A DNA stretch of 64,000 bases, taken from positions 1-64,000 of the IMG/VR virus record IMGVR_UViG_3300028559_002342. One strand, 5' to 3'. The position numbers and the translations under genes were made by a program. Numbering within the stretch: position 1 is the stretch's first letter; every line of letters begins with the position of its first letter. Below the pieces are notes generated by a model. That model made no database searches. It saw nothing but the letters and a program-made list of their open reading frames with translations, and was not told the DNA's origin. The DNA is from a virus. Positions 10,088 to 63,681 of this stretch are shown here, in pieces.

Positions 10088-10354
10088 ATGAAATCAATTA
10101 ATATATTTGAAGAAGCGTTTTTACAAGCGTTGAATGAAACCAATGTTGCTGGTGGCATAGGCAGCTTGTTTGGTGGGGGCATTCTGGATATAGGTGACAC
10201 AGCAGGAAAAGTGCCAGGATCACCCAATGATATCTATGCCCCAAATGATGCACGCATTCCAAAAATTTTGGGCATGGGGAAAAAGAAGAAAAAAGAAAAG
10301 ATGGGCATCATGCGCAGACCTCTCCCCGGGCTGGGCAAAGAAGTTGTAAATTAA
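10088..10354 (+). CDS. Small putative head-internal protein with capsid-targeting-like N-terminus
   Basis: An 88-residue protein of unknown function. The first 17 residues (MKSINIFEEAFLQALNE) form an amphipathic helix-like peptide ending in L-N-E before T, similar to T4 capsid-targeting peptides cut by gp21. The rest is Gly/Pro-rich with a Lys-rich stretch (GKKKKKEKMG) that could contact DNA. It is divergent from uvsY, with 26 bp between the two starts. No enzyme motif is visible. Packaging in the head is inference from the N-terminus alone. Confidence 0.7.
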   Translation: MKSINIFEEAFLQALNETNVAGGIGSLFGGGILDIGDTAGKVPGSPNDIYAPNDARIPKILGMGKKKKKEKMGIMRRPLPGLGKEVVN

Positions 10355-10374
10355 TATATTGCGCTAATTATAGT

Positions 10375-10788
10375 ATGGATTTAGGTCACTGGATTTTAAC
10401 TGAAGGTGTTTCTGTTGACATGGACACTTTTGGATTCATCTACGAAATAACAAATACAGTTAACGGGAAAAAATACATAGGAAAAAAACAATGCAAATCC
10501 AAGTTAAAAAGGAAGCCTTTGAAGGGAAAGAAGAACAAGAGAATAGAGATAAAGGAATCAGATTGGAAGGCATATACCAGCTCTTCTAATGACCTTAATG
10601 CAGATATTATAAAATATGGCAAAGACAAGTTCATATTCAAAATTTTAAGAAAATGCAATTCAAAATGGGAATTGGCTTATTTTGAGATCAAGCAACAACT
10701 TGATAGAGATGTGATTTTGAGAGATGATTACTATAATGGAATCATAAATGTCAGAATTGGAAGACCACCAAAGAATTTTCTTGAATAA
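10375..10788 (+). CDS. GIY-YIG domain protein with capsid-targeting-like N-terminus
   Basis: A 137-residue protein with a GIY-YIG nuclease N-terminal region: GFIYEITNTVNGKKYIGKKQ at about residues 19-38 gives the G(F)IY...YIG pair, followed by a Lys-rich stretch. No separate DNA-binding domain is seen, so a freestanding homing endonuclease of the usual length is unlikely. The first ten residues, MDLGHWILTE, precede a Gly and look like a gp21-type cleavage site (I-L-T-E / G). If so, it would be packaged in the head and injected. It stands 20 bp after the previous small gene on the same strand. Nuclease activity is inferred. Confidence 0.75.
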   Translation: MDLGHWILTEGVSVDMDTFGFIYEITNTVNGKKYIGKKQCKSKLKRKPLKGKKNKRIEIKESDWKAYTSSSNDLNADIIKYGKDKFIFKILRKCNSKWELAYFEIKQQLDRDVILRDDYYNGIINVRIGRPPKNFLE

Positions 10789-10813
10789 TTTCTAGTTTCA
10801 TGCATAATAGAGT

Positions 10814-11374
10814 ATGCTAAAAAAGCTTGATTTTAAGCAATATAATTTTCAACTCATCAATTTTAACTTTATAATGCGCAAGGTGGAGGTTGATATCATA
10901 AACGATTTGCACAAATATCACCTCCTGAAGGAAAGAATAACCACAAACGCCAAGCAGTTTTTTTACCATCATATTATTTTTGGCATTTGTGAGTATCTTC
11001 TGGCTAATAAAACAAATGAAAAGAGCATTATATATTTTAACAACACTCAATTGGAACCATTGATGCTTTTGAAGTATTTCAAAGAAGAGGACTTGAAAAG
11101 ATTGTTGGATCAAATACTATGCAAAGTGAAGAAATTGCTTCCCATTAAGGTTTACCGTTCCAATATATCGTTTGAATTCTTGGATCACTTGCTGGTTGAG
11201 AATGAAGGCAGAGGCATAGAAGTGATTAGCGGCATAAGATCTTACTTGGACAGTGTTAATATTGAACGCTTTACATTTGCTAAAGTCAAGACTTTTACAA
11301 AGAAAAATAATCTCATATTTCTTAATAAAGAATACTTTGATCTGCTCAAGACTAAACAACTTCTCTTCAGGTAA
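10814..11374 (+). CDS. Hypothetical protein
   Basis: A 186-residue protein, Lys/Leu/Phe-rich, that I do not recognise. It has no membrane segment, signal peptide or catalytic motif. Predicted helices are scattered throughout (LKRLLDQILCKVKKLL near residues 95-110). The start could be the ATG at 10814 or the in-frame ATG at 10874 (MRKVEVDIIND). It sits between the GIY-YIG gene and an appendage gene in a plus-strand late block. Confidence 0.65.
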   Translation: MLKKLDFKQYNFQLINFNFIMRKVEVDIINDLHKYHLLKERITTNAKQFFYHHIIFGICEYLLANKTNEKSIIYFNNTQLEPLMLLKYFKEEDLKRLLDQILCKVKKLLPIKVYRSNISFEFLDHLLVENEGRGIEVISGIRSYLDSVNIERFTFAKVKTFTKKNNLIFLNKEYFDLLKTKQLLFR

Positions 11375-11378
11375 ATCA

Positions 11379-11385
11379 ATAAATA
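11379..11385 (+). promoter_or_regulatory. Late promoter box ATAAATA
   Basis: ATAAATA ends 5 nt before the ATG at 11391. With T4 late-promoter geometry the transcript would begin at the A of ATG. Confidence 0.65.
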
Positions 11386-11390
11386 ATTAA

Positions 11391-12302
11391 ATGGCAGATA
11401 TAGCTATTTCACAGTTGACCTATGGGCTACCATCTTCAACTGCATCTATACCATTTTCACAAGACGGTAATACTTTAAGAGTAGCTCCCTCCGGTCTTCT
11501 TGTAAATGCAGGTAAAGTTGGTATTAATACAGGCACAACACCGCTAACAGCTGAATTAACTTTGGCAAGACCTGTGCAAACACAGGGTAGAGAATCAATA
11601 GAATTAAATGTAAGTTCAGGGATTGCAGGCGGGTATTTTGATGGTCTTAAATTTACACAAACGGCAGGTACTTACAATACCTTGGCAAGTATACGTTGCA
11701 ACGTATTTAATAGTGGGCAAACAGCATTAGAATTTTCTACTAGAGATAATACTGGAACTACGCTCAATGCAAGCCCATTGCTTACTTTAGACCGTAATAA
11801 CGGTAATGTTTTAAATCACGGATTAATTTTAAGCGGCAGCCCTCAATATAATGATGGTTTGCATAATTTGCCAGATGCCGGTATGGTCTCACAAAATGTT
11901 GCAAGAGGTTTTTATCATTCTAGGGAAAACTCGGGAACTAATGCAATATATGCTCATATTTTACTACCTTCAGATTTTAACAATACAAATTCTCAAATGT
12001 TTTTGCTAGAAGTAAAAGGATATAATTTTACTAACTCTTATCTATTAAATTTAATGATAGGTGGATATGTGACTCTCGCTAGTAATGGCGGGCCTATTAG
12101 AAATGTTACTAGTTGGTCTGCGCAAGGAGATTTTGCACCGACTGCATATTACAGTAATACATATAACAGAGGTATTGCAAGGTTTTATCTATCTAGACCA
12201 TACTACACTTCTTTTGTAGTTAATTCAATATGCGTAGGAAATGGTAGAATAATAAAACCGGGTGAGCTTCAAATCATTTACAGCACTAACGCTACAATCT
12301 AA
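11391..12302 (+). CDS. Tail or appendage protein with MADxxI N-terminal module
   Basis: A 303-residue beta-rich virion appendage protein. The first 45 residues (MADIAISQLTYGLP, then IPFSQDGNTLRVAPSGL) match the N-termini of the proteins at 17477 and 20293, so this looks like a common anchoring module with exchangeable distal parts. The middle has LTLDRNNGNVLNHG-type segments as in tail-fibre shafts. The C-terminal 150 residues are Asn/Ser/Tyr-rich and may bind a receptor glycan. Its codon choice is more A/T-biased than that of neighbours such as 12314, hinting at separate acquisition. Preceded by an ATAAATA late box. Confidence 0.75.
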   Translation: MADIAISQLTYGLPSSTASIPFSQDGNTLRVAPSGLLVNAGKVGINTGTTPLTAELTLARPVQTQGRESIELNVSSGIAGGYFDGLKFTQTAGTYNTLASIRCNVFNSGQTALEFSTRDNTGTTLNASPLLTLDRNNGNVLNHGLILSGSPQYNDGLHNLPDAGMVSQNVARGFYHSRENSGTNAIYAHILLPSDFNNTNSQMFLLEVKGYNFTNSYLLNLMIGGYVTLASNGGPIRNVTSWSAQGDFAPTAYYSNTYNRGIARFYLSRPYYTSFVVNSICVGNGRIIKPGELQIIYSTNATI

Positions 12303-12308
12303 TAAATA
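12302..12308 (+). promoter_or_regulatory. Late promoter box ATAAATA
   Basis: The box ends exactly 5 nt before the ATG at 12314 and overlaps the stop of the preceding appendage gene. It predicts a leaderless late transcript. Confidence 0.65.
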
Positions 12309-12313
12309 ACTAT

Positions 12314-12766
12314 ATGAGCTTTAATGATACACTGTCCAAATTTTTAAGATTGTATAATGAACAAGGTGAAGAACAGCCTCTGGATGCTGCAGCTCCTGCA
12401 CCTCAGCAAGCTCCACCACCTGCGCCACCACAAGCTCAAGGTGAACCAGGTGCCCTGCCACCTGAAGGTTATGTGGACATGGTTAGAATGTTGGCCAAGG
12501 CATTGGTAATGAATGTGCCAGCCGGCACCATTGATGCATTGTTTACTAAGCCCATCAATCAAGAGTCAGCTGCTGAAACAAGAGAAGCATTGCAGTTGGC
12601 CATAGCCACAAACGAAAATTATGAAGACAATCCACGCAGAATCACTAATCCTCACATAAAGCAGTTTGTGGACTCCATTAATGAAAATAACTTCATGGCA
12701 AAGTATAAAGAGATTCTTAATATAATGAAGCGTTTCAGCAATGATCCTAATCTTAAAACAAAATGA
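12314..12766 (+). CDS. Putative head-internal protein, Pro/Ala/Gln-rich linker
   Basis: A 150-residue protein of unknown function. Residues 1-16 (MSFNDTLSKFLRLYNE) resemble a capsid-targeting peptide ending in L-Y-N-E. A Pro/Ala/Gln-rich linker of about 40 residues follows (AAAPAPQQAPPPAPP), then a helical domain (YVDMVRMLAKALVM to the end). It has its own ATAAATA late box. It overlaps nothing but ends 1 bp before the next gene's start, so it heads a late operon with the nuclease-like, ligase-like and nucleotidyltransferase genes. Packaging is an inference. Confidence 0.75.
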   Translation: MSFNDTLSKFLRLYNEQGEEQPLDAAAPAPQQAPPPAPPQAQGEPGALPPEGYVDMVRMLAKALVMNVPAGTIDALFTKPINQESAAETREALQLAIATNENYEDNPRRITNPHIKQFVDSINENNFMAKYKEILNIMKRFSNDPNLKTK

Positions 12767-12767
12767 T

Positions 12768-13931
12768 ATGCGCAAGCTCAAGGTCAAAAAACCATACAAG
12801 TCTCTGGATGACATTTATCTAAGAGAATCTTTTGCAAAATCAGTACCGCTTTTGCCGTATCAAATAACTGAAAGAGTAACTATCTCTGTAGTTACAGATA
12901 GCGGTGAACAAGAAAATTTTACTGTATCTGATTCATGGTATAACAAAGCTATTAAAGATAAGCTTAAGATGGGCAGTCAAAATTTAGATACGTTTTATGA
13001 GCTTATTCATTATAGGTGTGTCGATTCAGGCATTCTACCACCCGGTCATGATGATATTAATGCACGAGAAGTAAAAGTATTCTATGATTATATTCTTTCT
13101 TTAACCGGTCCAGAGAATATTAATTCCTTTTTTGAAAAGTTTGTTGATAATGGTTTTAAAATAGCAGCGTTATTTTTAGATGCTATTAATAAAAACGAAA
13201 AGTTTAATGTTTTTGATGTCTTATCTAATTTTTATGGTGTTAAGTTTGCATATTCGGATGAAGTATTTAAAGTAAGGCCATTTTCCGCAGCACAAAAAAC
13301 AAGAGGTGCACCCGGGCCCGGTGAAGCATTTATTGCATTCTTTTTCTATAGTAAAAAACCTGTTGTGGGTGATTTGAGTATTCCCTCAGGCGGTAAAACA
13401 GTAGAAATAGAAATTAAAAAACAAGGAGGAAGAATAGGTAAAGGATTAAATGTGGAGGCAGGTAAGCTGGGTAGAAAGCTGTATCCTGATTTAGCTAATC
13501 TGGACATGAATGTATTAAAGCAATTTGTTGAGTATTTTGATTTACAGAGTGTAGGAGATATTCTTCTTGGGAAGGGTCAGGGTAAATTCACAGGCATCTC
13601 AGGTGTAAATCATTATGCACAAGAGCAATTAGATGCTCAGTTTTTAAAGAATAACTTAGATTATTTTATAAAATATTTTGCAAAACTTGATAATTTACAA
13701 CAATATATTGGCACAATACAAATGAAGGATTATTTTTCAAAAATTAAGGAATTTGATAGTATATTAATTTTTACAGAAAGCGGAGTATCTATTGGAATAA
13801 AGAGAGATTATATAATTAGCACACCTATTTTACAGCTTGCGCCAGCATTGCAACAAAAACAGGTGTTTTTAAAACGCAAAACAGCTGCAGGATTTTTATT
13901 TGATTCAGACGGATTTAAGATAACAATATGA
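12768..13931 (+). CDS. Putative PD-(D/E)XK nuclease-like protein
   Basis: A 387-residue protein from the ATG at 12768, chosen because an upstream in-frame ATG at 12741 lies inside the preceding gene. The central part, GEAFIAFFF followed by GDLSIP and VEIEIKKQGGRIG (about residues 190-235), has the D-x(n)-E-x-K spacing and GGR of restriction-like nucleases. The N-terminus contains DDIYLRE/S, a possible gp21-type cut site at residue 20. Codon use is noticeably more A/T-rich than in 12314 and 13928, suggesting recent transfer. It overlaps the ligase-like gene by 4 bp. Nuclease activity is inferred from one motif. Confidence 0.6.
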   Translation: MRKLKVKKPYKSLDDIYLRESFAKSVPLLPYQITERVTISVVTDSGEQENFTVSDSWYNKAIKDKLKMGSQNLDTFYELIHYRCVDSGILPPGHDDINAREVKVFYDYILSLTGPENINSFFEKFVDNGFKIAALFLDAINKNEKFNVFDVLSNFYGVKFAYSDEVFKVRPFSAAQKTRGAPGPGEAFIAFFFYSKKPVVGDLSIPSGGKTVEIEIKKQGGRIGKGLNVEAGKLGRKLYPDLANLDMNVLKQFVEYFDLQSVGDILLGKGQGKFTGISGVNHYAQEQLDAQFLKNNLDYFIKYFAKLDNLQQYIGTIQMKDYFSKIKEFDSILIFTESGVSIGIKRDYIISTPILQLAPALQQKQVFLKRKTAAGFLFDSDGFKITI

Positions 13932-15121
13932 TACCGTTTAAACAATTTCTATTGGAAGGTGGTGCAGCAGGTCACATGGCACATCCTTTTGATTTGCCTA
14001 ATGTGAATTCAGGTAAAGATCTCATCAACACCTTCAATAAAATTGTCAAAAGTTTGCAGAAAAAGCCTTCAGTAGTAAAAATTGATGGTGCCAATGCTGC
14101 CATAAAATTGATTGCAAATGCAGAAGGTAAGAAAGAGTTTGCCATGGACAGAGGATCCAATAAACCAGAAGATGTTGAAGGTGTTACAGTGGCAAGATTG
14201 GGCACACGCTTTCCAGAGGGTCATGGAATGAGAGACATAGGTTCAACTGTGTTGGGCATTTTTAACTCAGCCATCCCTGCCATAGAAGCAGATTTGAAGA
14301 AGCTCAAGATGTGGGATAACAATAAAATCCTCTTCAACATGGAGTATGTGCAAGGGGCAACAAATGTCATAGGTTATGCAAACAACTTTCTGGCCATTCA
14401 TGGTTTGAATGAAATTGTGCAGGTGAGAAGTCCAGTTCGCGGCAGTGTGAGCAGAGCATCGCGAGAGATACCTTATGATAAAAAGACATTGCAAAATTTA
14501 ATTGCCAAAGTGGATCCCATAGCCAAGAAGAAAGGATTTGATGTGGCACATGAATTTGTTGTGAAGCTGGGCAAACCAGATTTGAATAAACCTCTGAATG
14601 AGCCTTTTTCTGTTAGCTACGATTCCAAGAACATAGTAACAAAGCCTTTGAGAGAGTGGCTGGGTGCAGTTAAGAATCCCAAAGCTGAGAAGATTAAGCT
14701 TGCATCAGGAAAAACTATCAGTGCCATGAGCATGGAAAACTATAAAAACGTCACTGGCAGTGTTCCCATGCATGTATACATTGGTGCAAACAAGAAGGAC
14801 ATTGACAAGGCAATTTCAGGTGCTGTCATGTATCATGCCACACTTGTGTTGGGACAGGCCATCAAAGATGCTGCTTCATCTGATTTGGGTACTCTTTCCA
14901 CACAAGAAGGCATTGTGATAAGAGATGCAGCAATATCTTCCAATCCAGTCAAGGTCACTGGTAATTTTATCTTGGGCAAAGAACAGGGTAAGTTTGCACA
15001 AGCAAAAAAAGCAGAAAATGAAGAGCAACAAAGACAATTGTCCAATAATAACTACATGATGAACCCAGAGTATGGCAAAGAAGGTGCTCGTTTGACGCAC
15101 ACACCAGGAATGGCTTTATGA
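13928..15121 (+). CDS. Nucleic-acid ligase-like nucleotidyltransferase (DUF6267-type), CTS-like N-terminus
   Basis: A 397-residue protein with the landmarks of covalent nucleotidyltransferases (RNA/DNA ligase or capping fold). KIDGANAAIK at about residues 51-60 gives the K-x-D-G lysine motif, NMEYVQG (near 138-144) fits the motif III region, and EGIVIRD (near 329-335) fits motif IV. It is probably an RNA or DNA ligase relative. In marine T4-like phages such proteins are usually labelled DUF6267, from memory. Residues 1-10 (MIPFKQFLLE) before GG look like a gp21 cleavage site, so the protein may be packaged. It overlaps both neighbours by 4 bp, coupling it to the nucleotidyltransferase at 15118. 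Confidence 0.75.
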   Translation: MIPFKQFLLEGGAAGHMAHPFDLPNVNSGKDLINTFNKIVKSLQKKPSVVKIDGANAAIKLIANAEGKKEFAMDRGSNKPEDVEGVTVARLGTRFPEGHGMRDIGSTVLGIFNSAIPAIEADLKKLKMWDNNKILFNMEYVQGATNVIGYANNFLAIHGLNEIVQVRSPVRGSVSRASREIPYDKKTLQNLIAKVDPIAKKKGFDVAHEFVVKLGKPDLNKPLNEPFSVSYDSKNIVTKPLREWLGAVKNPKAEKIKLASGKTISAMSMENYKNVTGSVPMHVYIGANKKDIDKAISGAVMYHATLVLGQAIKDAASSDLGTLSTQEGIVIRDAAISSNPVKVTGNFILGKEQGKFAQAKKAENEEQQRQLSNNNYMMNPEYGKEGARLTHTPGMAL

Positions 15122-15768
15122 AATTTGATCAACTGGTAAATGAAATACTAACCCATCAGAAAAATAATTTAATAGTTATTTTTCCAGGACGCTTTCAACC
15201 ATTCCACATGGGCCATAAAAAGCTTTATGACATGGCCAAGAGTCAGTTTCCAGGAGCAGATTTTTTTATTGCTACAACAGATGAAGTGGCCAAAAACGAA
15301 GATGCTTCCAGATATCCTTTCAACTTCAATGAAAAGAAAGAAATAATAAAAGCCGCAGGCATACCTGACAATGTGGTAAAACAGGTGAAGCAGCCTTACA
15401 AACCTTTGGAGATTCTGAAAAACTATGATCCTAATGTTACCAAGGTGATCTATCTTGTGGGCAAAAAGGACATGCAATCAGATGCAAGATTCACTTTTGG
15501 CATGACAAAAAAAGGCACTCCCAGTTACTTTCAGCCATTCAAAGATCTTCAATCCATGCAACCATTCAAAGAACAAGGTGGCCATGGGTACATTTATGCA
15601 CCAAGTACCATACAGTTCAACATAGGTGATAAGAGCATCACCAGTGCCACTGAATTAAGAGACATATACAAGGCTTCTAATGAAGCTACAAGAAAGCAAA
15701 TAATTGCAGCTGTTCTGGGCAAATTTAATGCCACAGTTTTCAAGTTGTTCAATACTAAGTTAAGCTAA
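15118..15768 (+). CDS. NMNAT-like cytidylyltransferase-fold nucleotidyltransferase
   Basis: A 216-residue HIGH-superfamily nucleotidyltransferase. It has FPGRFQPFHMGHKKL near residues 22-36 (the GRFxPxHxGH signature) and the late SITSATELRDIY near 180-191, equivalent to the ISxTxxR motif. NMN, nicotinate-nucleotide or phosphopantetheine adenylyltransferases share this layout, so the substrate is not certain. Residues 1-9 (MKFDQLVNE) resemble a capsid-targeting peptide. The ATG overlaps the stop of the ligase-like gene (ATGA), implying a functional pair. Convergent with, and overlapping by 9 bp, the gene at 15760. Confidence 0.8.
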   Translation: MKFDQLVNEILTHQKNNLIVIFPGRFQPFHMGHKKLYDMAKSQFPGADFFIATTDEVAKNEDASRYPFNFNEKKEIIKAAGIPDNVVKQVKQPYKPLEILKNYDPNVTKVIYLVGKKDMQSDARFTFGMTKKGTPSYFQPFKDLQSMQPFKEQGGHGYIYAPSTIQFNIGDKSITSATELRDIYKASNEATRKQIIAAVLGKFNATVFKLFNTKLS

Positions 15769-16371
15769 CTTCTTCTTTTTTTCAAGAATTAAAATAGTCT
15801 CAAGCAACACTTTTTCCACCGTCTCTGTACTCTCTTTCTTGAGAGCGTTGTTTAAATTTCTCACCAACTCATCACCACCTTTGGCTATGGCACTGTACAG
15901 GTCTTCTTCATTACTTTCATCAAAATTGTCTGCACCACACATGCCATGTTGAGGGTTTTTAGCTGCTTCATAATCTTCATAACCAAGCACAGAATCCAAC
16001 TGATCATGAGCATTGGTAATTTTGCTCAGAACCCAAGCTTCAATGTTATTCTTGCCTTGCAGGATGCCATGCAGCATTGCAGAAATTTTATGTATTCTGA
16101 AAATTAATTGTCTGGACATCTCGCCATTGCTGCTTGATGTGGAGGGGTCATATCCTTCACAATCTTCACTCTTATTATTGGCATGTTCTTCCTGTTCATC
16201 ATCTCCACAATTTCTCTTGGGAGGCATGGAAGCTTTAACAATTCTAACAGGTGTGGCACTTGCACCTGCACCTGCACCTGCATCAACAGCTCTTGGTCCT
16301 AAGCCAAGATTCTCTTTAACGATCTTCTGATCATATATCTCGTTGAGCAAATGAAAGTCATTGTAAAACAT
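15760..16371 (-). CDS. Late virion-type protein with Ala/Gly linker
   Basis: A 203-residue protein. The N-terminal MFYNDFHLLNE resembles a capsid-targeting peptide. A linker with AGAGAGAS and a patch CGDDEQEEH follow, then a helical C-terminal domain (SAMLHGILQGKNNIEAWV, then HDQLDSVLGYEDYEA). The helical pattern recalls a conserved structural family of marine T4-like phages, seen from memory only. The final residues are Lys-rich. An ATAAATA box precedes it by 8 nt on the minus strand. Function unknown; packaging in the head is likely but not proven. Confidence 0.75.
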   Translation of the reverse strand: MFYNDFHLLNEIYDQKIVKENLGLGPRAVDAGAGAGASATPVRIVKASMPPKRNCGDDEQEEHANNKSEDCEGYDPSTSSSNGEMSRQLIFRIHKISAMLHGILQGKNNIEAWVLSKITNAHDQLDSVLGYEDYEAAKNPQHGMCGADNFDESNEEDLYSAIAKGGDELVRNLNNALKKESTETVEKVLLETILILEKKKKLA

Positions 16372-21122: not shown

Positions 21123-21557
21123 ATGCATTACAACAAAATAATACAAGAGAGCTTGAAGAACACAGCTTTGAAGCGCATTCGCATCAAAGTGGATCCAGCA
21201 CTAGTGAATGCCAGCGCTGACTTGGCTGGCTTGGATGGTTATGAAGGTTATGTGCTGGAAGAATGCATGGGCAGATTGAAGATACTTGTGCTTTCACCCA
21301 ACATGCCCATTTGTGATTTGCCTGAAGAAGCAATTGAGATGTTGGCCACCCAACATGATGCAGATGTGTTTGAAGAATACAAGGCTTTTGTTATTGTCAA
21401 ATTAATCAAAGATGGTAAAACCGTGAATGATCCTTTGCTTGAGCAGATTAAATGCAGTTCTGATATAAATAGTATAGAACAGTTAATAGGTCAATTTGGT
21501 TATTCTGGTGATCGATTGGCTGCACTGTACAGAGATTTTATTACCAATGAAAATTAA
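21123..21557 (+). CDS. Putative head-internal protein with CTS-like N-terminus
   Basis: A 144-residue protein of unknown function. The ATG at 21123 is chosen because of the ATAAATA box; an upstream in-frame ATG at 21093 lies inside the preceding gene. The opening MHYNKIIQE followed by S resembles a gp21-cleaved targeting peptide. The body has a beta-rich segment (GYVLEECMGRLKILVLSP, residues 40-57) and a helical C-terminus. The 3' end overlaps the next gene by 11 bp. Confidence 0.7.
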   Translation: MHYNKIIQESLKNTALKRIRIKVDPALVNASADLAGLDGYEGYVLEECMGRLKILVLSPNMPICDLPEEAIEMLATQHDADVFEEYKAFVIVKLIKDGKTVNDPLLEQIKCSSDINSIEQLIGQFGYSGDRLAALYRDFITNEN

Positions 21558-22206
21558 TCAATTTGATGAATTAGTAGAGCGAATATTAAGTGAAGCTGAA
21601 GGCAGCTTTCTGAGCAGGTTGGGAAGTGCTGCCGCCAACGTGGGCAGAGGTGTAGCTCAAGTGTATAATGCTCCAGCCAATTTTGCCAAAGGTGCAGCTG
21701 CAGTTAGAAGTGCTGTGCAAGGTGGTGTCATACCTTTGAAAGACAAGCCAAAACCTGATGCATCAGGTCAGGGCCAAACGCCAGCATCAAAAGAATTGCC
21801 CAAACCAGGGGATCCAGTGAGAGTGCAATTGAGAGGCTTGGGTGCAGCTCCAACTGGTGTTGCTGGCAGGCTTGAAAATCCAAAAGATTATGATGGTGGC
21901 AAGTTGTATGATGTGAAATTGACAGGCAACCCTCAAGTGGATAAACTAAGAATTCTGGACAAACCAGATCCCAAGGGCACCATGATGAGACAGGTATTTT
22001 ATTTTGATAAAACTGGCATGGAAGTCAATCCTGGCTATCTGAAGCAAAAGAAACTGAACACCTCTGGTTACTTTGGCATGAATCCCAACGTTGACAAATC
22101 CAAGATCCCTGGAGGACGGGAATGGATATTTTCAGACAATGAAGTGCCCTTCTTGCCACAAGATCAACAGGCACCGGGCACACCTGGCAAGCCACCGGTC
22201 AGATAA
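21547..22206 (+). CDS. Putative head-internal protein, strong gp21-type site
   Basis: A 219-residue protein of unknown function. Residues 1-16 (MKINQFDELVERILSE) end in I-L-S-E before A-E-G, the best match in the window to the gp21 consensus. An Ala/Gly-rich region follows, then a Pro/Lys-rich linker, and a beta-rich C-terminal domain with GDPVRVQLRGLG near residue 90, which could be a small barrel. The start is inside the previous gene, which suggests translational coupling. The C-terminus is Pro/Gly-rich. Confidence 0.7.
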   Translation: MKINQFDELVERILSEAEGSFLSRLGSAAANVGRGVAQVYNAPANFAKGAAAVRSAVQGGVIPLKDKPKPDASGQGQTPASKELPKPGDPVRVQLRGLGAAPTGVAGRLENPKDYDGGKLYDVKLTGNPQVDKLRILDKPDPKGTMMRQVFYFDKTGMEVNPGYLKQKKLNTSGYFGMNPNVDKSKIPGGREWIFSDNEVPFLPQDQQAPGTPGKPPVR

Positions 22207-26347: not shown

Positions 26348-26560
26348 ATGTCTAAATTCAACAATAAGTTTGAAGAACTCTTGGAAAACTTCAATTGCAT
26401 TAGAACTGTGAGACGCGAGTTTTACCCTAAAAACTTCAGGTTATCAGAAGATTTTGTTAAATCGTTTAAAAGTGAATACGTGAGACTTGTGAAAGAGGGC
26501 AATCATCCTCGCAAAGTGCTTGCAAGAATCAACAAAGCACTCCTGTTTCACGCAAAATAA
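26348..26560 (+). CDS. Small hypothetical basic protein
   Basis: A 70-residue basic protein (Lys/Arg/Asn-rich) of unknown function. It reads FEELLENFNCIRTVRREF and ends INKALLFHAK. It is likely helical, with no membrane segment. It has its own late box, and its stop is adjacent to that of the convergent gene at 26561. Confidence 0.65.
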   Translation: MSKFNNKFEELLENFNCIRTVRREFYPKNFRLSEDFVKSFKSEYVRLVKEGNHPRKVLARINKALLFHAK

Positions 26561-42794: not shown

Positions 42795-43466
42795 ATGTCC
42801 CTACGCCTATTAGTAGAAGCACCTGCTCCTGATGAGCAATTTGAATACATTCTAGAGGAAAAGAATCCTAAAGAACCGGCACGCTTGCACATTCAGGGAC
42901 CTTACATGATATGCAATGAGGTGAATCGCAATCAAAGAATTTATGAAAAATCCGACATGGAGAGAGAAGTTAACAGATACATCAAGGAGATGGTCAATAC
43001 AAATCGCGCCATGGGTGAACTTAACCATCCTGCTTCTGCAGAAGTGAATCTGGAGAGAGCTTGTCACGTGGTGACAAACCTCCGGTTGGAAGGCAATGTT
43101 GTCATAGGCAAATCACAAGTGCTTAGCACACCCATGGGTCAGATTGTGCGCTCTCTAATCAATGATGGTGTAAAAGTTGGCATGTCAAGCCGCGCTCTGG
43201 GCAAGCTCAATGAAGAATCAGGTGGCGTGAATCGTGTCACTGACATGCGCTTGGTGGCTGTTGACTGTGTTGCAGATCCCTCGTGCCCCAAAGCATTTGT
43301 GAATGGAATCCTGGAAAGCAAACAATTTGTTGTGGCTGCAAATGGTGAACTGGAAGAAATATATAATAAATTTGAAAACAGTTTGCGGAATTTGCCAAGA
43401 AAAGACATGCAGGTGTATCTGAAGGAACAGCTGATCACCTTCTTTAAATTCCTAAAGACTGCATAA
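42795..43466 (+). CDS. 21: Prohead core protease (T4 gp21-like)
   Basis: Serine protease that matures the prohead by cutting core proteins, capsid protein and internal proteins after hydrophobic-x-Glu. At 223 residues it is close to T4 gp21 (212). MGELNHPASAEVNL near residues 72-85 carries the catalytic His and VGMSSRALGK near 126-135 the catalytic Ser. Its own N-terminus, MSLRLLVE before APAP, looks like an auto-cleavage site. Its expected substrates in this phage may include the 13 proteins with CTS-like starts described here. Confidence 0.93.
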   Translation: MSLRLLVEAPAPDEQFEYILEEKNPKEPARLHIQGPYMICNEVNRNQRIYEKSDMEREVNRYIKEMVNTNRAMGELNHPASAEVNLERACHVVTNLRLEGNVVIGKSQVLSTPMGQIVRSLINDGVKVGMSSRALGKLNEESGGVNRVTDMRLVAVDCVADPSCPKAFVNGILESKQFVVAANGELEEIYNKFENSLRNLPRKDMQVYLKEQLITFFKFLKTA

Positions 43467-43700: not shown

Positions 43701-44585
43701 ATGGAAAACAACATCACAAAAGTATTGAGAGAAGCCACTAAGGATATCCTCACAGAGGATGTGCTCAAGGAAATAGAAGCAGCTTTTGATAGCACTGTCA
43801 ATGAAAGAGTGCAGATTCATGTTGAAAAGGCTCTGTCTGAACAAGATGCTGATTATTCTAAAAAGCTAGAGACATTAGTGGAAGCCATTGACACTGACCA
43901 TACTAACAAATTAAAGAAAGTTGTTGAAGCTGTTGATTCTGATCGTGCCAACAAACTCAAGGCAGTGATTAAGAAGTATGAAACAGCTCTTAACAAAGAA
44001 GCAGTAAATTTCAAAGAAACCATTGTGGAGCAAGTTAGCAAATATCTAGACATCTACCTTGAAGAAAAACTTCCTTTAACTGATGTTAAAGAAGCTGTGA
44101 AGAACAAGAAGGCCTTGGCTGTTCTTGAAAGTCTTCGCTCAACACTTTCCGTGGATATGGCATTGTCGAAAGATACTATTCGTGATGCCATAGTAGATGG
44201 AAAGAAAAGAATAGATGAAGCTGCTGGCCAGCTTGAAGCTGCGAACAAATCTGTCGCAAAATTATCTGAGGAAAATAAAAAAATGTCTGCCTCTTTGTTA
44301 TTAGAGACTAAGATCAGAAGTCTTAGCGATGATAAAAAGGTGTACATGAAGAAATTACTTGGATCTAAATCTGCAGAGTTTATCAAAGAAAATTTTGATT
44401 ACACTCTGAAGTTGTTTGAAAAGACAGAAGATGAGCGGCTGACAAATCTAAAGAATGAAGCTACCGCTGAGACCATGGCCACCACAGTGGATCGTCCAGT
44501 TATTGAAGAGAGCTTGAATTCTGTTGAGCAAACTGAGAATGAGCCTTCATTTGGCTTGTATCTCAATGAACTCAAAAAGTACTAA
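43701..44585 (+). CDS. 22: Prohead scaffold protein (T4 gp22-like)
   Basis: Major core scaffold, removed by gp21 during head maturation. The 294 residues are acidic and mostly helical or coiled-coil, with repeats such as KKLETLVEAIDTDHTNKLKK and VVEAVDSDRANKLKAVIKK near residues 53-90. The region KKVYMKKLLGSKSAEFIKEN near 213-232 and the C-terminal NEPSFGLYLNELKKY are typical of the family in T4-like marine phages. Several L/I-x-E sites are available for cleavage. It lies directly upstream of the capsid gene. Confidence 0.85.
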   Translation: MENNITKVLREATKDILTEDVLKEIEAAFDSTVNERVQIHVEKALSEQDADYSKKLETLVEAIDTDHTNKLKKVVEAVDSDRANKLKAVIKKYETALNKEAVNFKETIVEQVSKYLDIYLEEKLPLTDVKEAVKNKKALAVLESLRSTLSVDMALSKDTIRDAIVDGKKRIDEAAGQLEAANKSVAKLSEENKKMSASLLLETKIRSLSDDKKVYMKKLLGSKSAEFIKENFDYTLKLFEKTEDERLTNLKNEATAETMATTVDRPVIEESLNSVEQTENEPSFGLYLNELKKY

Positions 44586-44668: not shown

Positions 44669-46159
44669 ATGGCTAAACAAATTCGTCCTACACAGGCTTA
44701 CATTGATGAGTCTCGCGCTAAGGTGCTTCTCGAGAAGTGGGGTCCAGTATTGGATTACACCTCCGATAACGTCCGCGCAATTGAAGACGATCATACCCGG
44801 TTAAATACCGCCATTCTTTTGGAAAACCAAGAGAAATGGTGCTTTGAAGCCCACGGCAACAACAGTGCTGGTGGTTCAGGGTCTGTATTTAATCAAGCTG
44901 GAGCTGGTGCACCTAATGTAGGTGGCACTGGTGGTAACTTCGGTAATACCGATAGTTATGCAGCAAATGATACACGTCTCCCTAAGATACTCATTCCAAT
45001 GATCCGCCGTACGTTCCCTGAGTTGATCACCAACGAAATCGTTGGCGTTCAGCCCATGAGCGGTCCAGTAGGTCTCGCTTTTGCCCTCCGTTATAAGTAC
45101 GAAGCTGATGCTCTAGGTTCCCAGATTAATTCTGGGGATGGCGCACCAGGAGTAAGTGGCCCAACCCAAGGTTGGACCAACGCTTCTGATGGTGCTGAAC
45201 TAGGCTATCAATACCTCGACACCAGATTCACTGGCGCATCCACCACAGCCCTCACAGGCTTAGGAACTGGAAGCGACTTTGATATTCTTGGTCAAGATCG
45301 AGGTGTTGCTGCTGCATTAGCTAGTTTCGAGCTTACATCCAAGATTCCACAGATACTCGTCTCTTTCGAGAAGACGGCTGTTGAAGCTGGGACCCGTAGA
45401 CTCGCCGCTCGCTGGTCGGTTGAATTAGAGCAGGATCTTAAGAATATGAATGGCATCGATATCGATACCGAACTCACTAACGCTATGTCGTATGAGTTGC
45501 AGGCCGAAATTGATCGCGAAATGATTATTCGTATGATCCAAACCGCTCTAAACGCCGGTCTTGGAACAGGCTTCTCAGTCTGGTCCCCACTCTCGGCCGA
45601 TGGCCGTTGGTTGGTTGAGCGTAATCGTGACTTCTATCAGAGGTTAATCATCGAAGCTAATCGTATTGCAGTTCGTAATCGTCGTGGTGCTGCCAACTTT
45701 GTTGTTGCTACACCTCGCGTTTGCGCAATCTTGGAAATGCTCCCTGAATTTCAGTGGGTGCCTGTCCAGGGTAATGTCAATACACAGCCCGTCGGTGTTG
45801 CAAAAGTAGGCTCATTGGGTGGCAGGTTTAACGTTTATCGCGATACACGTACAGAAGCGCAAGCTGAAGCAAAGACAGGGAATTTCCCTACCGGTGCAAC
45901 ACGCGACCGGCGCCTTGAGTACGCCCTCCTTGGTTACAAGGGTCCTGAATTTTACGACACTGGTATCATCTATTGTCCGTATATTCCGGTCATGGTTCAG
46001 AGAACTATTGGTCCTAATGATTTCTCCCCTCGTGTTGGTCTATTAACCCGTTATGGCGTTGTAGACAACATCTTTGGAGCAAATCTTTACTACCACGTAA
46101 TTATTCTGAAGAATCTCGGTACTGCGTTTACACCTGGAACTCAAGCGGTTTACTTCTAA
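44669..46159 (+). CDS. 23: Major capsid protein (T4 gp23-like)
   Basis: The HK97-fold shell protein. The 496 residues match T4 gp23 (521): IPMIRRTFPELITNEIVGVQ near residues 110-129, GPVGLAFALRYKY, AARWSVELEQDLKNMNGIDI near 248-267, RGAANFVVATPRVCAILEML and a late GPEFYDTGIIYCPYIPVMV. The N-terminal segment with CFE/AHGNN near 58-66 is a candidate gp21 cleavage point. Codon use is richer in G/C-ending codons than in neighbours, as expected for a very highly expressed gene. It has the only clear SD-like AAGGA in the structural block. Confidence 0.97.
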   Translation: MAKQIRPTQAYIDESRAKVLLEKWGPVLDYTSDNVRAIEDDHTRLNTAILLENQEKWCFEAHGNNSAGGSGSVFNQAGAGAPNVGGTGGNFGNTDSYAANDTRLPKILIPMIRRTFPELITNEIVGVQPMSGPVGLAFALRYKYEADALGSQINSGDGAPGVSGPTQGWTNASDGAELGYQYLDTRFTGASTTALTGLGTGSDFDILGQDRGVAAALASFELTSKIPQILVSFEKTAVEAGTRRLAARWSVELEQDLKNMNGIDIDTELTNAMSYELQAEIDREMIIRMIQTALNAGLGTGFSVWSPLSADGRWLVERNRDFYQRLIIEANRIAVRNRRGAANFVVATPRVCAILEMLPEFQWVPVQGNVNTQPVGVAKVGSLGGRFNVYRDTRTEAQAEAKTGNFPTGATRDRRLEYALLGYKGPEFYDTGIIYCPYIPVMVQRTIGPNDFSPRVGLLTRYGVVDNIFGANLYYHVIILKNLGTAFTPGTQAVYF

Positions 46160-59174: not shown

Positions 59175-60641
59175 ATGGCCGACATAGTATCAAAAATCTT
59201 AGTCCGACAAGGAACAGATGTTCAAAGAAGAACAGCTAATTCTGGTGGTATCATATTCAGTTCTGGTGAGCCTGCATACTGCACAGATACAAGGAGATTG
59301 TTTATTGGTGACGGGACTACTAAAGGCGGCACTGTAGTGGGCAGCAGAAACTTGGGCATAGTCAGTGCATTATTTGGATCATCGACAAACGGGTTCACTA
59401 GTGAAGCTATTGCACTGTTCAATGCACAGGGTGCATCAGTTGGTGACTTTTTGTATGACAAAGCCACAAGAAACATATATTCACTTTCTGCTGTGACAGC
59501 TTTTCCTCCTCTATCCACCAATCTGGCAAAGTATGATTCTGTGGTTGTCATCAACACAGATCAATTCCAATTGATCAACAACTCAGTATTGACAATAAAG
59601 AGTGGTGGTGTAAGAAAGGAACAGCTGTTTTTTGATGTGGTTGATGGTGTATCACTAGAAAAAACAGCATTCAATCAGCCCATCCGCATCAAGACAGGCG
59701 GGGTGCAAAATTATCATTTTTCCAACCCCCCTGCTTTCACTGTGAAGGGTAATAGCCAGAGTACTGATGCAGCATTGAATGACATCTTTGTATATGAGAA
59801 TCATTTGGTAGGTAGGACATCACTATCAACTTTAACATCCATTCCATTCTCCACAGTGGTGGGTGGTGGCTTGAACAGTGACAATGGTGTAGATATTAAT
59901 GGCAATTCTGTTTCTCTGGATTTAACCTATTTTAGAATTACTCCTGACCCGATCAGAAGACTTACTTTTGTTTCTGCTACTTCTGCTCACAGTGATTTCA
60001 GTATAAATGGCACTACAACTACAAAAGCAATTACCATCAATGGCAACACAACCATGAACACTGGTGCTCTTGTGAACAATGGTACAACAAATCTCATTGG
60101 TGCTGCAAATGCAGGAGTGCTTCGAGTCAACACAAATCTGGTTGTGTCAACAATTTTAGCGGACAACATGGTCACCATAAAAGCACCTGCACGCGTGGAG
60201 GGCAACCTTGAGGTGAATAGCACATCCACAAACTCAATCACTGGCAACATTAATGTGACAGGAGGCATAAGTACCACTGCAAACAGCAGTGTCGGTGGCA
60301 CACTCACTGTGACAGGAGATGTTGTAGCATTCTATACTTCCTCAGATCTCAGATTAAAAGAAGATTTGAATGTATTGCAAGACCCTCTGGATAAAATCGG
60401 CAGTCTTGTTGGATACGAATTCACATTCAACTCCAATTCTCCTGCACATTTAAAAGGCAAGAAAAATTATGGGCTCATTGCACAAGATGTGGAGCGAGTG
60501 CTGCCTCTGTCTGTTGAACACAGAGCAGATGGCTATATGGGTGTAAATTATGAATCTGTCATACCATTGCTTGTGGAGTCTATCAAGGCACTGCAAACCA
60601 AAGTGAATAATCTACAGGATGAAATACGAAAAACTAGTTAA
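59175..60641 (+). CDS. Tail fibre with Mtd-like N-terminus and S74 chaperone domain
   Basis: A 488-residue tail fibre. The N-terminus (ILVRQGTDVQRRTANSGGII, then GEPAYCTDTRRLFIGDGT) is like the N-terminal domain of major tropism determinant proteins. The shaft is beta-rich with repeated Asn/Thr/Gly (VNSTSTNSITGNINVTGGIS). The C-terminal 100 residues form an intramolecular chaperone of the Peptidase_S74 type: SSDLRLKEDLN near residue 391, LIAQDVERVLP near 435, MGVNYESVIPLLVESIKAL and a coiled end. The catalytic Ser-Lys pair is in the SDLRLK region, so self-cleavage is expected. It is followed by an overlapping small gene. Confidence 0.9.
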   Translation: MADIVSKILVRQGTDVQRRTANSGGIIFSSGEPAYCTDTRRLFIGDGTTKGGTVVGSRNLGIVSALFGSSTNGFTSEAIALFNAQGASVGDFLYDKATRNIYSLSAVTAFPPLSTNLAKYDSVVVINTDQFQLINNSVLTIKSGGVRKEQLFFDVVDGVSLEKTAFNQPIRIKTGGVQNYHFSNPPAFTVKGNSQSTDAALNDIFVYENHLVGRTSLSTLTSIPFSTVVGGGLNSDNGVDINGNSVSLDLTYFRITPDPIRRLTFVSATSAHSDFSINGTTTTKAITINGNTTMNTGALVNNGTTNLIGAANAGVLRVNTNLVVSTILADNMVTIKAPARVEGNLEVNSTSTNSITGNINVTGGISTTANSSVGGTLTVTGDVVAFYTSSDLRLKEDLNVLQDPLDKIGSLVGYEFTFNSNSPAHLKGKKNYGLIAQDVERVLPLSVEHRADGYMGVNYESVIPLLVESIKALQTKVNNLQDEIRKTS

Positions 60642-60810
60642 GTCTTTACTGGAAGATTTTAATGTATTTCCTGGCACTCAGACAGCTGTAAATTCAGGAC
60701 CAGACATGGGAATGACATCTGGTGATATACAGAACACATTTCCAAGTAAAATGAGCACAGTAAAAATTAAATTACCAAAAAAGAAGATTAAGAAGTCAAA
60801 AAAAGATTAA
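60619..60810 (+). CDS. Small basic CTS-like protein
   Basis: A 63-residue protein that starts within the 3' end of the fibre gene. MKYEKLVKSLLE before DF has the shape of a capsid-targeting peptide. The C-terminus is very basic (KLPKKKIKKSKKD), so it could bind DNA in the head. It overlaps the lysozyme gene tail to tail by 23 bp. Confidence 0.65.
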   Translation: MKYEKLVKSLLEDFNVFPGTQTAVNSGPDMGMTSGDIQNTFPSKMSTVKIKLPKKKIKKSKKD

Positions 60811-61360
60811 TTACACTCTTCACACGCTTGCCCACCTGGGTTGCCCATTTGCTGTTTTGCAATTCTTTTGCTGCAGCTTTATAATCTTTGGCAAGGATAA
60901 AATCTTTTGTTTTAATAAATTTGCTTAATCTGGCATATCCCATGTTGAAAGAAAGATCCAGCACTGCCAGCTTCATGTTCTTGGGCAGCGAATCAAAATT
61001 GGGCAACCATTGCTTTGCATCTTTGTATGCAATGTTAATTGTAATTTTAAATATCTCTCTTATCTGGTCGTCTGTGAGGTCAATGACACCTGCCTTGGCA
61101 TCATTATAATTAACACCCACCTGCTGCAGAATATTCTTTGCATCAGGTCTCATCAAGTTCAATCCAATGCCTATGGTGGGTATGCCCAAACTATCTTTGT
61201 ACACATGTGGCTTATAGCCTTCATGTTCTTTGACAAAATTGAAGATGTCGTCAAAAGTGAGCTTGGTATCTGTTGCCCTTTGCATTATGGCAGGTGGTGG
61301 CAGTGGAGGTGCATCTGCAACTGCTTCCATGAGTTCTTCAACAAGCTTATTAAATTTCAC
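60788..61360 (-). CDS. Phage lysozyme (GH24, T4 lysozyme-like) with CTS-like N-terminus
   Basis: A 190-residue muramidase that would cut peptidoglycan. The catalytic Glu is in FNFVKEHEGYKPHVYKDSLG near residues 40-59 and GIPTIGIGLNL follows, the typical T4-lysozyme signature. LAVLDLSFNMG near 131 is the conserved helix. The preceding 35 residues are MKFNKLVEELME before AVADAPPLPPP, a capsid-targeting-like peptide plus a Pro-rich linker. This suggests that the enzyme is packaged or virion-associated instead of, or as well as, acting at lysis. The start is GTG, at exactly the late-promoter distance. Confidence 0.9.
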   Translation of the reverse strand: MKFNKLVEELMEAVADAPPLPPPAIMQRATDTKLTFDDIFNFVKEHEGYKPHVYKDSLGIPTIGIGLNLMRPDAKNILQQVGVNYNDAKAGVIDLTDDQIREIFKITINIAYKDAKQWLPNFDSLPKNMKLAVLDLSFNMGYARLSKFIKTKDFILAKDYKAAAKELQNSKWATQVGKRVKSVINLFLTS

Positions 61361-61365
61361 CTAAT

Positions 61366-61929: not shown

Positions 61930-61978
61930 AAAAAGTGCCAAATATGGCAGAGCATTTAACCGGTAACTTAAATGTTTA

Positions 61979-62437: not shown

Positions 62438-62449
62438 CAAACGATTGTA

Positions 62450-62725
62450 TTATAGTTTATCAATAATGCTAGTTACATCTTCAAGTGTTTTCTTCAAAGA
62501 TGGTGCAATAAAAAGATAGTCTTCCTTTAATCCTCTGGCAGCCTTGTTGGCAAGATTGGATAAATCAGTAGAAATCTTCTTCTGCATGGAACTGACTTCT
62601 TCATTCTCACTTCTGGCTTGGGGATATTCCTTGGGTGCATACAAATATGAGTCAGTGTTGCGCTCAGTGTTGTTGATGCCCAGGCTTGCATAGGACTCTA
62701 TTATAGCTTTTGTATCTCTGTTCAC
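62450..62725 (-). CDS. Putative head-internal protein, CTS-like N-terminus
   Basis: A 91-residue protein. MNRDTKAIIE before SYAS is CTS-like with an I-I-E/S site. The rest is helical with Ser/Glu-rich segments (SSMQKKISTDLSNLANKAAR). Unknown function. The start is GTG and lies exactly at the predicted transcription start of the bidirectional promoter shared with the zinc-ribbon gene. Confidence 0.7.
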   Translation of the reverse strand: MNRDTKAIIESYASLGINNTERNTDSYLYAPKEYPQARSENEEVSSMQKKISTDLSNLANKAARGLKEDYLFIAPSLKKTLEDVTSIIDKL

Positions 62726-62737
62726 TTAAATATTTAT
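62726..62737. promoter_or_regulatory. 12-bp bidirectional late promoter
   Basis: TTAAATATTTAT separates two divergent GTG start codons. Read on the plus strand, TTAAATA plus 5 nt reaches the GTG at 62738. Read on the minus strand, CATAAATA plus 5 nt reaches the GTG at 62725. The last base of the minus-strand box is inside the plus-strand start codon. Both messages would be leaderless. Confidence 0.65.
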
Positions 62738-62962: not shown

Positions 62963-63103
62963 AGGCATGCATTGATTCAAATATTTGGAAAGCAGAATAA
63001 CTTTTTTCATTATTTCTTCTTTTCTGTATGGCTTCTTCTCTTTCTTGGCTTGCATGTACAGGTCAAGAATTTGATCGGCAGTAATTTTCTTTCCACTTGT
63101 CAT
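62942..63103 (-). CDS. Small basic hypothetical protein
   Basis: A 53-residue helical and basic protein (TADQILDLYMQAKKEKKPYR, residues 8-27). The ATG at 63103 is set by an ATAAGTA box exactly 5 nt upstream, although a longer frame to 63166 exists. Function unknown. Confidence 0.6.
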   Translation of the reverse strand: MTSGKKITADQILDLYMQAKKEKKPYRKEEIMKKVILLSKYLNQCMPLDNVAR

Positions 63104-63108
63104 GTTAA

Positions 63109-63115
63109 TACTTAT
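63109..63115 (-). promoter_or_regulatory. Late promoter box ATAAGTA (minus)
   Basis: Variant box with exact 5-nt spacing before the ATG at 63103. Confidence 0.5.
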
Positions 63116-63147
63116 TTTATTAGTAGTTGCTTTTCTTGCATGCCTCA

Positions 63148-63154
63148 ATAAAAA
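63148..63154 (+). promoter_or_regulatory. Late promoter box variant ATAAAAA
   Basis: ATAAAAA ends exactly 5 nt before the ATG at 63160 and so supports that start for the H1-like gene. Confidence 0.45.
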
Positions 63155-63159
63155 TATGT

Positions 63160-63352
63160 ATGTCAAACATCAATCCACTCACCCTTCAAGAACATGTTGC
63201 AACCTTTACTGCCGAATACGAGAAGTTTTGGCGGTAATAATGCTGCAGGAACACGCACACGCAAAGCACTTCAGGAAGTGATTAAATTTGCCCGTGAAGC
63301 CCGCAAGAGTGTTCAAGAAGAAAAAAATAATCGCAAAGCTGCTAAGAAATAA
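63160..63352 (+). pseudogene. Histone H1/Hc1-like protein gene with a frameshift
   Basis: Two overlapping frames make one Hc1-like (PF07432) protein. Frame one (63160-63237) reads MSNINPLTLQEHVATFTAEY then EKFWR and stops. Frame two (63224-63352) continues FGGNNAAGTRTRKALQEV, IKFAREARKSVQEE and a Lys-rich end. Family members read KFY-x-K-GN-AAGTR-x-RK, so the break lies at the TTTTGG near 63226-63231. One base too many in the T-run, or another indel, would explain it; programmed frameshifting is another option. If repaired, the product is about 60 residues, basic and DNA-binding. The start is set by the late box. Confidence 0.65.
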
Positions 63353-63357
63353 TTCTC

Positions 63358-63681
63358 TTATTGCTTTAATCCCAGCTGTCGCTTCCGTTCATTTCTGTGA
63401 ACGGAGGTGATAGTTTGGATCACTTCTGATGCACGTGTGAATGAGTCGACTGTCTTGTAGATGGCATCAACAATTTCGTAGGCAGCATGTATGGCCTTGC
63501 GTTCACTGTTGATATCTTCCAAGGAAATCTTCTGTTCTTTCTTTTCCTTGTGTTCTTCATTTTCAGTTGCAGGTGGTCTTGTGGGTGCAGTGTTCAATGG
63601 TTTGGATTGTGTTACAACAGGCACTGCAGGCACACCTGGGCTGGTGTATGCTTCAAATATGAGATGACAATCATTGTTCAC
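63358..63681 (-). CDS. Putative head-internal protein, CTS-like N-terminus
   Basis: A 107-residue protein. MNNDCHLIFE before AYTSP is a CTS-like peptide with an I-F-E/A site. A Pro/Thr/Glu-rich linker follows (APTRPPATENEEHKEKKEQK), then a helical C-terminus (IHAAYEIVDAIYKTVDSFTR). The start is GTG, with a CATAAATA box 6 nt upstream. Function unknown. Confidence 0.7.
   Translation of the reverse strand: MNNDCHLIFEAYTSPGVPAVPVVTQSKPLNTAPTRPPATENEEHKEKKEQKISLEDINSERKAIHAAYEIVDAIYKTVDSFTRASEVIQTITSVHRNERKRQLGLKQ

Follow-up and report, generated by a model that had tools for sequence, protein, structure and literature searches.

The T4-like phage represented by IMG/VR record IMGVR_UViG_3300028559_002342, of whose 66,674 bases the first 64 kb were analysed (the window), encodes a set of otherwise unrelated late proteins with short N-terminal leaders that end in hydrophobic-x-Glu, a form fitting the cleavage site of the prohead protease gp21. 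Comparison with related contigs gives good support to a movable leader, carrying a gp21-type site, on late proteins that are otherwise unrelated. These leaders are very probably capsid-targeting sequences of the T4 type, which gp21 would cut, with the cargo kept in the head and mostly injected as an expanded arsenal. Late in infection, each tagged protein would be made with an N-terminal peptide of 9-20 residues, amphipathic-helix-like, that would direct it to the scaffold core (of gp22 type) inside the prohead; gp21 would then cut after hydrophobic-x-Glu at head maturation, and the cargo would remain in the head, most of it to be injected alongside the DNA. Recombination between leader and cargo would give the clade its changing arsenal, in which an NMNAT-like enzyme stands beside a ligase-like one, along with small proteins, a wall hydrolase and a slot for hypervariable, nuclease-like bodies. 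We infer targeting, cutting, retention, injection and cargo functions; detection in virions has been published for NMNAT-like relatives only.

A first-pass annotation of the window had listed 13 genes with such starts and proposed that their products are packaged in the head. Its observation is partly confirmed and its interpretation partly supported. All 13 starts and N-termini are present in the sequence, with GTG, read as Met, at 61360, 62725 and 63681 on the minus strand. The T4-like genes recognised in the window encode DNA polymerase, an SbcC-like protein, ribonucleotide reductase, portal, gp13-like and gp4-like proteins, gp21 and gp23, and a gp21-type protease and T4-type head genes (gp4-, gp13-, gp21- and gp23-like, portal) coexist in one genome. 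The claim that gp21 itself begins with a fitting site (MSLRLLVE/A) also holds. Between gp21 and gp23 lies a candidate gp22-like scaffold gene, for which the Pfam T4_CASP match (E 0.043) is below the family cut-off and no PHROG match was found. The nearest relatives of the window gp21 are IMG/VR contigs (among the best 80 of 559 relatives); annotated phage records show 41-44% identity to it and all but one are Synechococcus phages (among the best 40 of 2,508).

The comparison set consists of the window record and ten related contigs (G001-G009 and G013), 11 contigs in all, with 1,325 genes called by script. Late units were defined by a short promoter-like element ([AT]TAAATA within 45 bases upstream) plus gene spacing; the element precedes 32% of genes compared with 2.2% of random 45-mers. 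Conservation of the site was counted per family, window included, as hydrophobic-x-Glu with a hydrophobic residue at P3 (hxE). Genes are named here by their lower coordinate, and all features are collected in Table 1.

The leaders behave as modules. The MN-type leader (like MNNDCHLIFE/AY), found in the window on 62450 and 63358, occurs on 11 unrelated families across the 11 contigs, and once the leader is removed the lowest body-to-body E value between families is 0.18. One relative, G009, carries it on seven proteins of seven families; the DNA of these seven genes is 58% identical within the leader, 34% before it and 30% after it. MN-type leaders are concentrated in late units (23/731 genes, against 1/594 others; p 1.1e-5). 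A scan with a strict DNA pattern for MNKDxxLIFEAY recovered 62 stretches in viral contigs, corresponding to 63 open reading frames (ORFs) whose bodies form 17 clusters; 15 of the clusters could be compared, two ORFs (of 20 and 32 residues) being too short. The largest cluster has 37 members, all with the late element upstream, and among the 50 records with a strict leader examined for gp21, four of the five longer than 100 kb carry it.

Other leaders are exchanged as well. At the 12768 slot, identity among nine contigs averages 66% over residues 9-32 and falls to 10-15% in all later segments, and an alignment of seven proteins has ten invariant columns among the 30 N-terminal residues, with seven more at the GxGE, GD and ExK motifs. 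The start at 12768 fits the relatives, unlike the longer ORF from 12741. The body had been called nuclease-like; the invariant GD and ExK columns could correspond to the D..ExK core of PD-(D/E)xK nucleases, which have a restriction-enzyme fold, but neither a Pfam nuclease match nor a usable structural model (predicted local distance difference test, pLDDT, 35.6) was obtained, and a nuclease-like body is suggested by the motifs alone. The lysozyme locus was compared in six contigs, of which three encode leader, Pro-rich linker and lysozyme, while two relatives have a similar leader and linker but a SleB/CwlJ-type hydrolase body (Hydrolase_2, E 3.7e-12 in G003, the one of the two that was tested). 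The NMNAT-like protein, whose leader reads MKFDxLVNEIL, has it swapped for MKTFKQYISE in G008; this latter leader and that of 13928 resemble the T4 leader MKTYQEFIAE, whereas MN-type leaders do not. With the MN-type families, the 12768 slot and the body exchange at the lysozyme locus, the expectation that the N-termini move as a module across related phages is borne out. A separate observation at the lysozyme gene concerns G001, where the extra N-terminus MHPELRHQLYGGDISD (G001_68954-) is resembled by the start MDAETKQQLYGGEISD of a small ORF in the window (23846-24022, plus strand).

At 21547, nine contigs retain both flanking genes and all carry a gene between them. Eight of the nine starts have the form FDxLVxxILNE (as MMHLNFDNLVDLILNE/A) and the ninth is shorter, FDQLSE; some of the bodies share a C-terminal region. 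What is kept at this locus is the pattern of the leader, not its letters.

The motif itself was tested as [LIVMF]xE with Glu at positions 7-18. The first-pass annotation had allowed that an equal frequency of the motif among early enzymes of the phage would speak against it. Raw counts within the window are close, 18/45 late-unit genes against 10/38 others, a weak contrast that was rejected as evidence. At the level of families (those with three or more members spread over three or more contigs, the motif counting as kept when present in at least 75% of members), the motif is kept in 29/83 late and 5/51 non-late families (Fisher p 7.7e-4), a comparison in which families are not independent of one another; gp23 itself is one of the five. 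Shifted windows in the late families contain the motif in 38/249 cases, compared with 29/83 at the true place (p 1.8e-4). With Leu or Ile only, the counts are 21/83 late, 4/51 non-late (p 0.009) and 19/249 shifted (p 5.8e-5). When each of the 20 residues was substituted for Glu, Glu gave p 1.8e-4, Gln 0.01 and all others at least 0.19, and after correction for 20 tests significance survives for Glu alone. An earlier definition of late genes, restricted to those with their own promoter, gave 17/34 late against 16/82 other families (4/34 and 5/82 in the shifted window). This contrast is weaker than that of the transcription-unit version, the 16/82 arising because operon mates were counted as non-late. 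A position matrix built from 13 families places 4/36 late and 1/90 non-late families above its 99% threshold; as so few pass, only its ranking is usable.

Chance, in the sense that hydrophobic-x-Glu is common in short N-termini and that the reader of the sequence selected the examples, is thus a very improbable explanation. It would account for the close counts within the window, and the case of 10375 alone may fit it, but it is opposed by the conservation within families, the specificity for Glu and the near-identical leaders on unrelated bodies; the leader swaps already speak against it.

Several results weigh against the interpretation of the leaders as head-targeting sequences of late genes, as do the raw window counts given above. 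The late-unit rule is broad, marking 55% of genes as late, including gp46- and gp47-like ones, and several tagged members are late only through operon position. The late element precedes 43/63 strict MN ORFs, but only 6/26 outside the 37-member cluster; records with a strict leader carry gp21 in 9/50 and gp23 in 3/23 cases, most of these records being fragments. The MN, IP (internal protein) and A expressions were composed after the data had been seen. The IP-type expression is not significant (22/731 late-unit genes against 10/594, p 0.08). It matches three of 258 called T4 genes, namely ipII, ipIII and 61.1, and the 118 genes called over a scanned 94 kb of S-SM1 yield a single match, GC190; ipII, ipIII and GC190 were already known to the author when it was composed, and T4 ipI, alt, gp21, gp22, gp23 and gp24 are missed. 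The A-type expression (23 late against 6 others) was given no weight, because its matches in T4 (6/258 genes) include no known head substrate. Leader identity at 21547 (0.19) is not above that of the body (0.14-0.24), and the G001 lysozyme has a different N-terminus. One scan gave 13 NMNAT loci: the leader is present at six close ones and a candidate, LASKLVTE/A, at L249, while none was seen at L247, L248 and L250-L253. Beside these tests, T4 gp61.1 (NC_000866.4, 18966-19130) was observed to start MKTFKEFIKE/D, which is internal-protein-leader-like.

The enzymes encoded at 13928 and 15118 offer a possible connection between the window and published virions. The identification of 15118 as NMNAT-like is upheld by its HIGH-type cytidylyltransferase domain, as is that of the lysozyme by its Pfam match. 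Searched by tblastn, 15118 has no match in Synechococcus or Prochlorococcus phages at E 0.01 and matches the Microcystis cyanophage Mel-JY01 (E 4e-18). The putative citidylyltransferase T4-GC190 was detected in purified virions of S-SM1 (Sullivan et al., 2010; PMC3037559), and NMNAT-like proteins are reported in virions of S-CBWM1, S-SZBM1, S-SCSM1 and, by implication, S-CREM2 (PMC10665884). S-SM1 GC190 and 15118 both belong to phrog_395, and each directly follows a ligase-like gene with a KxDG motif. GC190 encodes the start MKKFSAFLNE/AERSF, a form close to that of T4 IPII and IPIII (MKTYQEFIAE/A), and all 80 of the relatives that the scan kept have Leu8, Glu10 and Ala11, with variation at residue 9; this test is of only moderate strength, since these relatives are 74-100% identical to the query. 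The authors of the S-CREM2 study suggested that regulatory virion proteins such as cytidyltransferases might be contaminants (PMC10665884). The conserved L-x-E/A leader on the S-SM1 cytidyltransferase argues instead for deliberate packing, and it predicts the exact mature end of that protein.

The ligase-like assignment of 13928 is upheld by some tests and not by others. Its KIDG and EGIVIRD motifs are conserved in relatives, and a model with pLDDT 76.6 gave 50 best structural matches that are all ligases or ligase-type adenylyltransferases, with a middling best Z of 7.6; plain Foldseek returned no match at E 0.001, Pfam and PHROG gave none, a sequence search of solved structures gave two irrelevant matches, and tblastn in annotated phages found nothing at the limits set. 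Profile comparison with GC71, the neighbour of GC190 in S-SM1, is weak (E 0.035, probability 1.5), which leaves motifs and gene order as the basis for relating the two. phrog_455 spans cyanophage ligase-like and cytidyltransferase proteins in reversed order. Fusions of the NMNAT-like and ligase-like proteins occur in Mel-JY01, L248 and L249, with (I/L)-x-E/GGxxGHMxHPFD at the junction, which may mark a processed polyprotein or a Glu-Gly-Gly that is part of the ligase. Near the place of the ligase gene, G009_87695+ (L142:13695-16271) encodes an 858-aa protein whose start is leader-like and whose match to Pfam RNA_ligase (E 2.8e-5) is below threshold.

It is quite possible, though on balance doubtful, that in some members, 10375 and perhaps 13928, the stretch around Glu belongs to a folded enzyme and is not a leader. 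The persistence of Glu-Gly-Gly inside the fusions, with EGGxxGHMxHPFD internal in all three, counts against a leader at 13928, as its Glu may for that reason belong to the enzyme. Against the enzyme explanation, every fusion junction retains a Leu or Ile at P3 even though the preceding sequence differs, and 32 of the 50 best ligase alignments begin behind the leader, at residues 11-13, the other 18 beginning at residues 1-6. Membership of 13928 is likely but ambiguous. The GIY-YIG protein at 10375 was correctly identified in the first pass, but its leader probably does not stand: the site is kept in 11/11, yet GHW is also kept in all, the phrog_447 match starts at residue 5, and the N-terminus resembles WIFNGHPF of a leaderless cyanophage relative. 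Since GHW is kept everywhere and the PHROG match extends so far forward, this start looks like part of the enzyme, and 10375 is probably not a leader-bearing member.

The comparison supports, for most of the proteins first listed, membership in the tagged set: 10088, 12314, 12768, 15118, 21123, 21547, 60619, 60788, 62450, 63358 and, with Glu20 as the predicted site, 15760. The original list had missed 26348 and had placed the site of 15760 elsewhere. At the Glu11 site of 15760, six of 11 family members were counted as keeping the motif, four have Leu-Asn-Asp, and one is an overlong gene call with LNE further in; Glu20 is the likely cleavage site by this comparison. The Asp in four relatives deserves attention because in IPIII an Asp at position 10 prevents processing while leaving targeting intact (PMC9026906). 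Two weak tblastn matches to 15760 were found in annotated phages, and none to 21123 at the limits set; the single miss of hxE in the 21123 family is a gene called too long. By blastp, the gp23-like segment of 10088 aligns with gp23 of seven relatives (E 3e-13 at best; gp23 residues 62-119), in a region that follows directly on the presumed maturation site, WCFE/A; the window's own gp23 is absent from the matches at E 1e-3. Membership of 16837 (MESFKKFYDKPVFGVNE; Zn_protease match below cut-off) is uncertain.

Table 1. Coordinates of the candidate tagged proteins, the head genes and the fusion genes of other phages (hxE, members keeping the site; a slash within a leader marks the predicted cut)
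Coordinates	Strand	Feature	hxE	Other evidence
10088..10354	+	88-aa protein, leader MKSINIFEEAFLQALNE/TNVAGG, then segment homologous to gp23 N-arm	10/10	
10375..10788	+	SegE-type GIY-YIG protein, MDLGHWILTE/G		Pfam SegE_GIY-YIG E 1.9e-30
12314..12766	+	150-aa protein, leader MSFNDTLSKFLRLYNE/Q, Pro/Ala/Gln-rich linker, conserved domain	11/11	Late-type element upstream
12768..13931	+	Cargo slot, constant leader KKPYKSLDDIYLRES..PLLP, hypervariable, putatively nuclease-like body GxGE..GD..ExK		
13928..15121	+	RNA/DNA ligase-like protein, KIDG and EGIVIRD, candidate leader MIPFKQFLLE/GG	10/10	
15118..15768	+	NMNAT-like cytidylyltransferase, leader MKFDQLVNE/IL	10/10	Pfam CTP_transf_like E 1.2e-9; phrog_395 E 3.5e-11
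15760..16371	-	203-aa protein, likely site KIVKE/N (Glu20) over LLNE/I (Glu11)	9/11 vs 6/11	
21123..21557	+	144-aa protein, leader MHYNKIIQE/S	8/9	Late-type element
21547..22206	+	Variable locus, leader MKINQFDELVERILSE/A		Bodies of nine contigs cluster in five families
26348..26560	+	70-aa late protein, leader MSKFNNKFEELLE/N	9/11	Late-type element
42795..43466	+	gp21 prohead protease	11/11	Pfam Peptidase_S77 E 7.6e-37; phrog_207 E 9.9e-58
43701..44585	+	gp22-like scaffold candidate, ILTE/D motif		Located between gp21 and gp23
44669..46159	+	gp23 major capsid protein, presumed site near residue 60		phrog_138 E 1.6e-82
60619..60810	+	63-aa protein, Lys-rich tail, leader MKYEKLVKSLLE/D	6/6	
60788..61360	-	Phage lysozyme, leader MKFNKLVEELME/A, Pro-rich linker	3/4 lysozymes	Pfam Phage_lysozyme E 1.2e-10
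62450..62725	-	91-aa protein, MN-type leader MNRDTKAIIE/SY	6/6	
63358..63681	-	107-aa protein, MN-type leader MNNDCHLIFE/AY	4/4	
L152:5920-7839, L248:4980-7253, L249:4740-6890		NMNAT-ligase fusions		(I/L)xE/GG at junction

Two further explanations concern the destination of the tagged proteins. They might serve in the core or scaffold only, being docked, trimmed by gp21 and then used in assembly or degraded like T4 gp22, gp67 and gp68, with no injection. We consider this unlikely: gp21 and the gp22-like protein do have comparable starts, the three T4 proteins are indeed digested and several cargos are small or of low complexity, but it is hard to see a part in assembly for NMNAT-like, ligase-like or wall-hydrolase domains or for a hypervariable, nuclease-like body, and NMNAT-like relatives are reported from mature virions. 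That the leaders direct proteins elsewhere, to a membrane or to some phage structure other than the head, is a far more remote prospect, as the site fits the published gp21 rule, (L/I)-x-E, gp21 itself carries such a site, and the virion cytidyltransferase of S-SM1 has a leader like those of T4 internal proteins.

Head targeting of the T4 type, the preferred reading, has close precedents. The cleavage rule of gp21 and the part played by the ten N-terminal residues have been described for T4 (PMC9026906), where IPI-III and Alt likewise bear a short N-terminal leader on unrelated late proteins, usually with (L/I)-x-E/A, in a genome encoding gp21. In contrast to the T4 internal proteins, 64 kb here encode about 12 tagged proteins with several leader types, some of the cargo consists of recognisable enzymes, one slot combines a constant leader with a hypervariable body, and leaders are reused more widely. 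The high number of tagged proteins is not new in itself, because at least 10 internal proteins have been reported for T4 relatives (PMC12373910). Internal proteins of T4 act as inhibitors of type IV restriction enzymes, and the signal sequence has led to the discovery of many ip genes (PMC12373910); by analogy, the cargos of the window may act against host defence. The cyanophage virion cytidyltransferases share with 15118 the phrog_395 family, the adjoining KxDG ligase-like gene and, in S-SM1, a T4-type leader, although the leader sequence differs from that of 15118; in the parts of the virion reports consulted, a targeting leader is not mentioned. Giant phages such as phiKZ and SPN3US similarly cut many head and ejection proteins after Glu by a gp21-like protease, but several of their propeptides are longer than 100 residues, and in phiKZ the motif reads S/A-x-E.

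Additional observations were made in the window and its relatives. G001_23610+ and its relatives (in L093, L101, L107, L110, L116 and L121) are 64-71 aa proteins with a late promoter and weak likeness to DUF3008 (E 0.032). They contain a C-terminal leader-like stretch (e.g. SFSSLVEDILTE/L), with ILxE at the C-terminal end in five of six members, which is possibly a C-terminal tag; T4 Alt is trimmed at the C-terminus as well (PMC9026906). The proteins at 11391, 17477 and 20293 of the window and at 64362 of the record share the N-terminal form MAD(V/I)xI..L..(G/S).P...(I/L)P(Y/F), perhaps a shared attachment domain. The gene at 23168-23845 matches QueD-type phage genes, and that at 24834-25571 is one we take to be of QueE type; together they possibly point to 7-deazaguanine modification.

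Precedents exist for targeting leaders, for phages with several internal proteins and for NMNAT-like proteins in virions. Leaders of this kind in such phages are not described in the titles and abstract openings surveyed, which is not proof of absence. As far as that survey goes, the reuse of leaders with enzyme cargo in an uncultured clade, the slot of constant leader and variable body, and the leader on a virion cytidyltransferase are new. More tentatively, the head may be an open loading dock, in which any late gene that gains one of a few leaders would become cargo. This would provide an enzyme kit at time zero of infection, with the NMNAT-like and ligase-like pair for NAD or RNA repair, a nuclease-like weapon and a wall hydrolase, and the prohead protease may double as a polyprotein processor, given the candidate gp21 site at the junction of the three NMNAT-ligase fusions of other phages. 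The non-DNA content that phages inject is mostly unknown and unmarked in genomes. If a leader and its conservation can be read from sequence, it would become possible to draw up a list of the proteins that uncultured T4-like phages inject, among them enzymes annotated as unknown.

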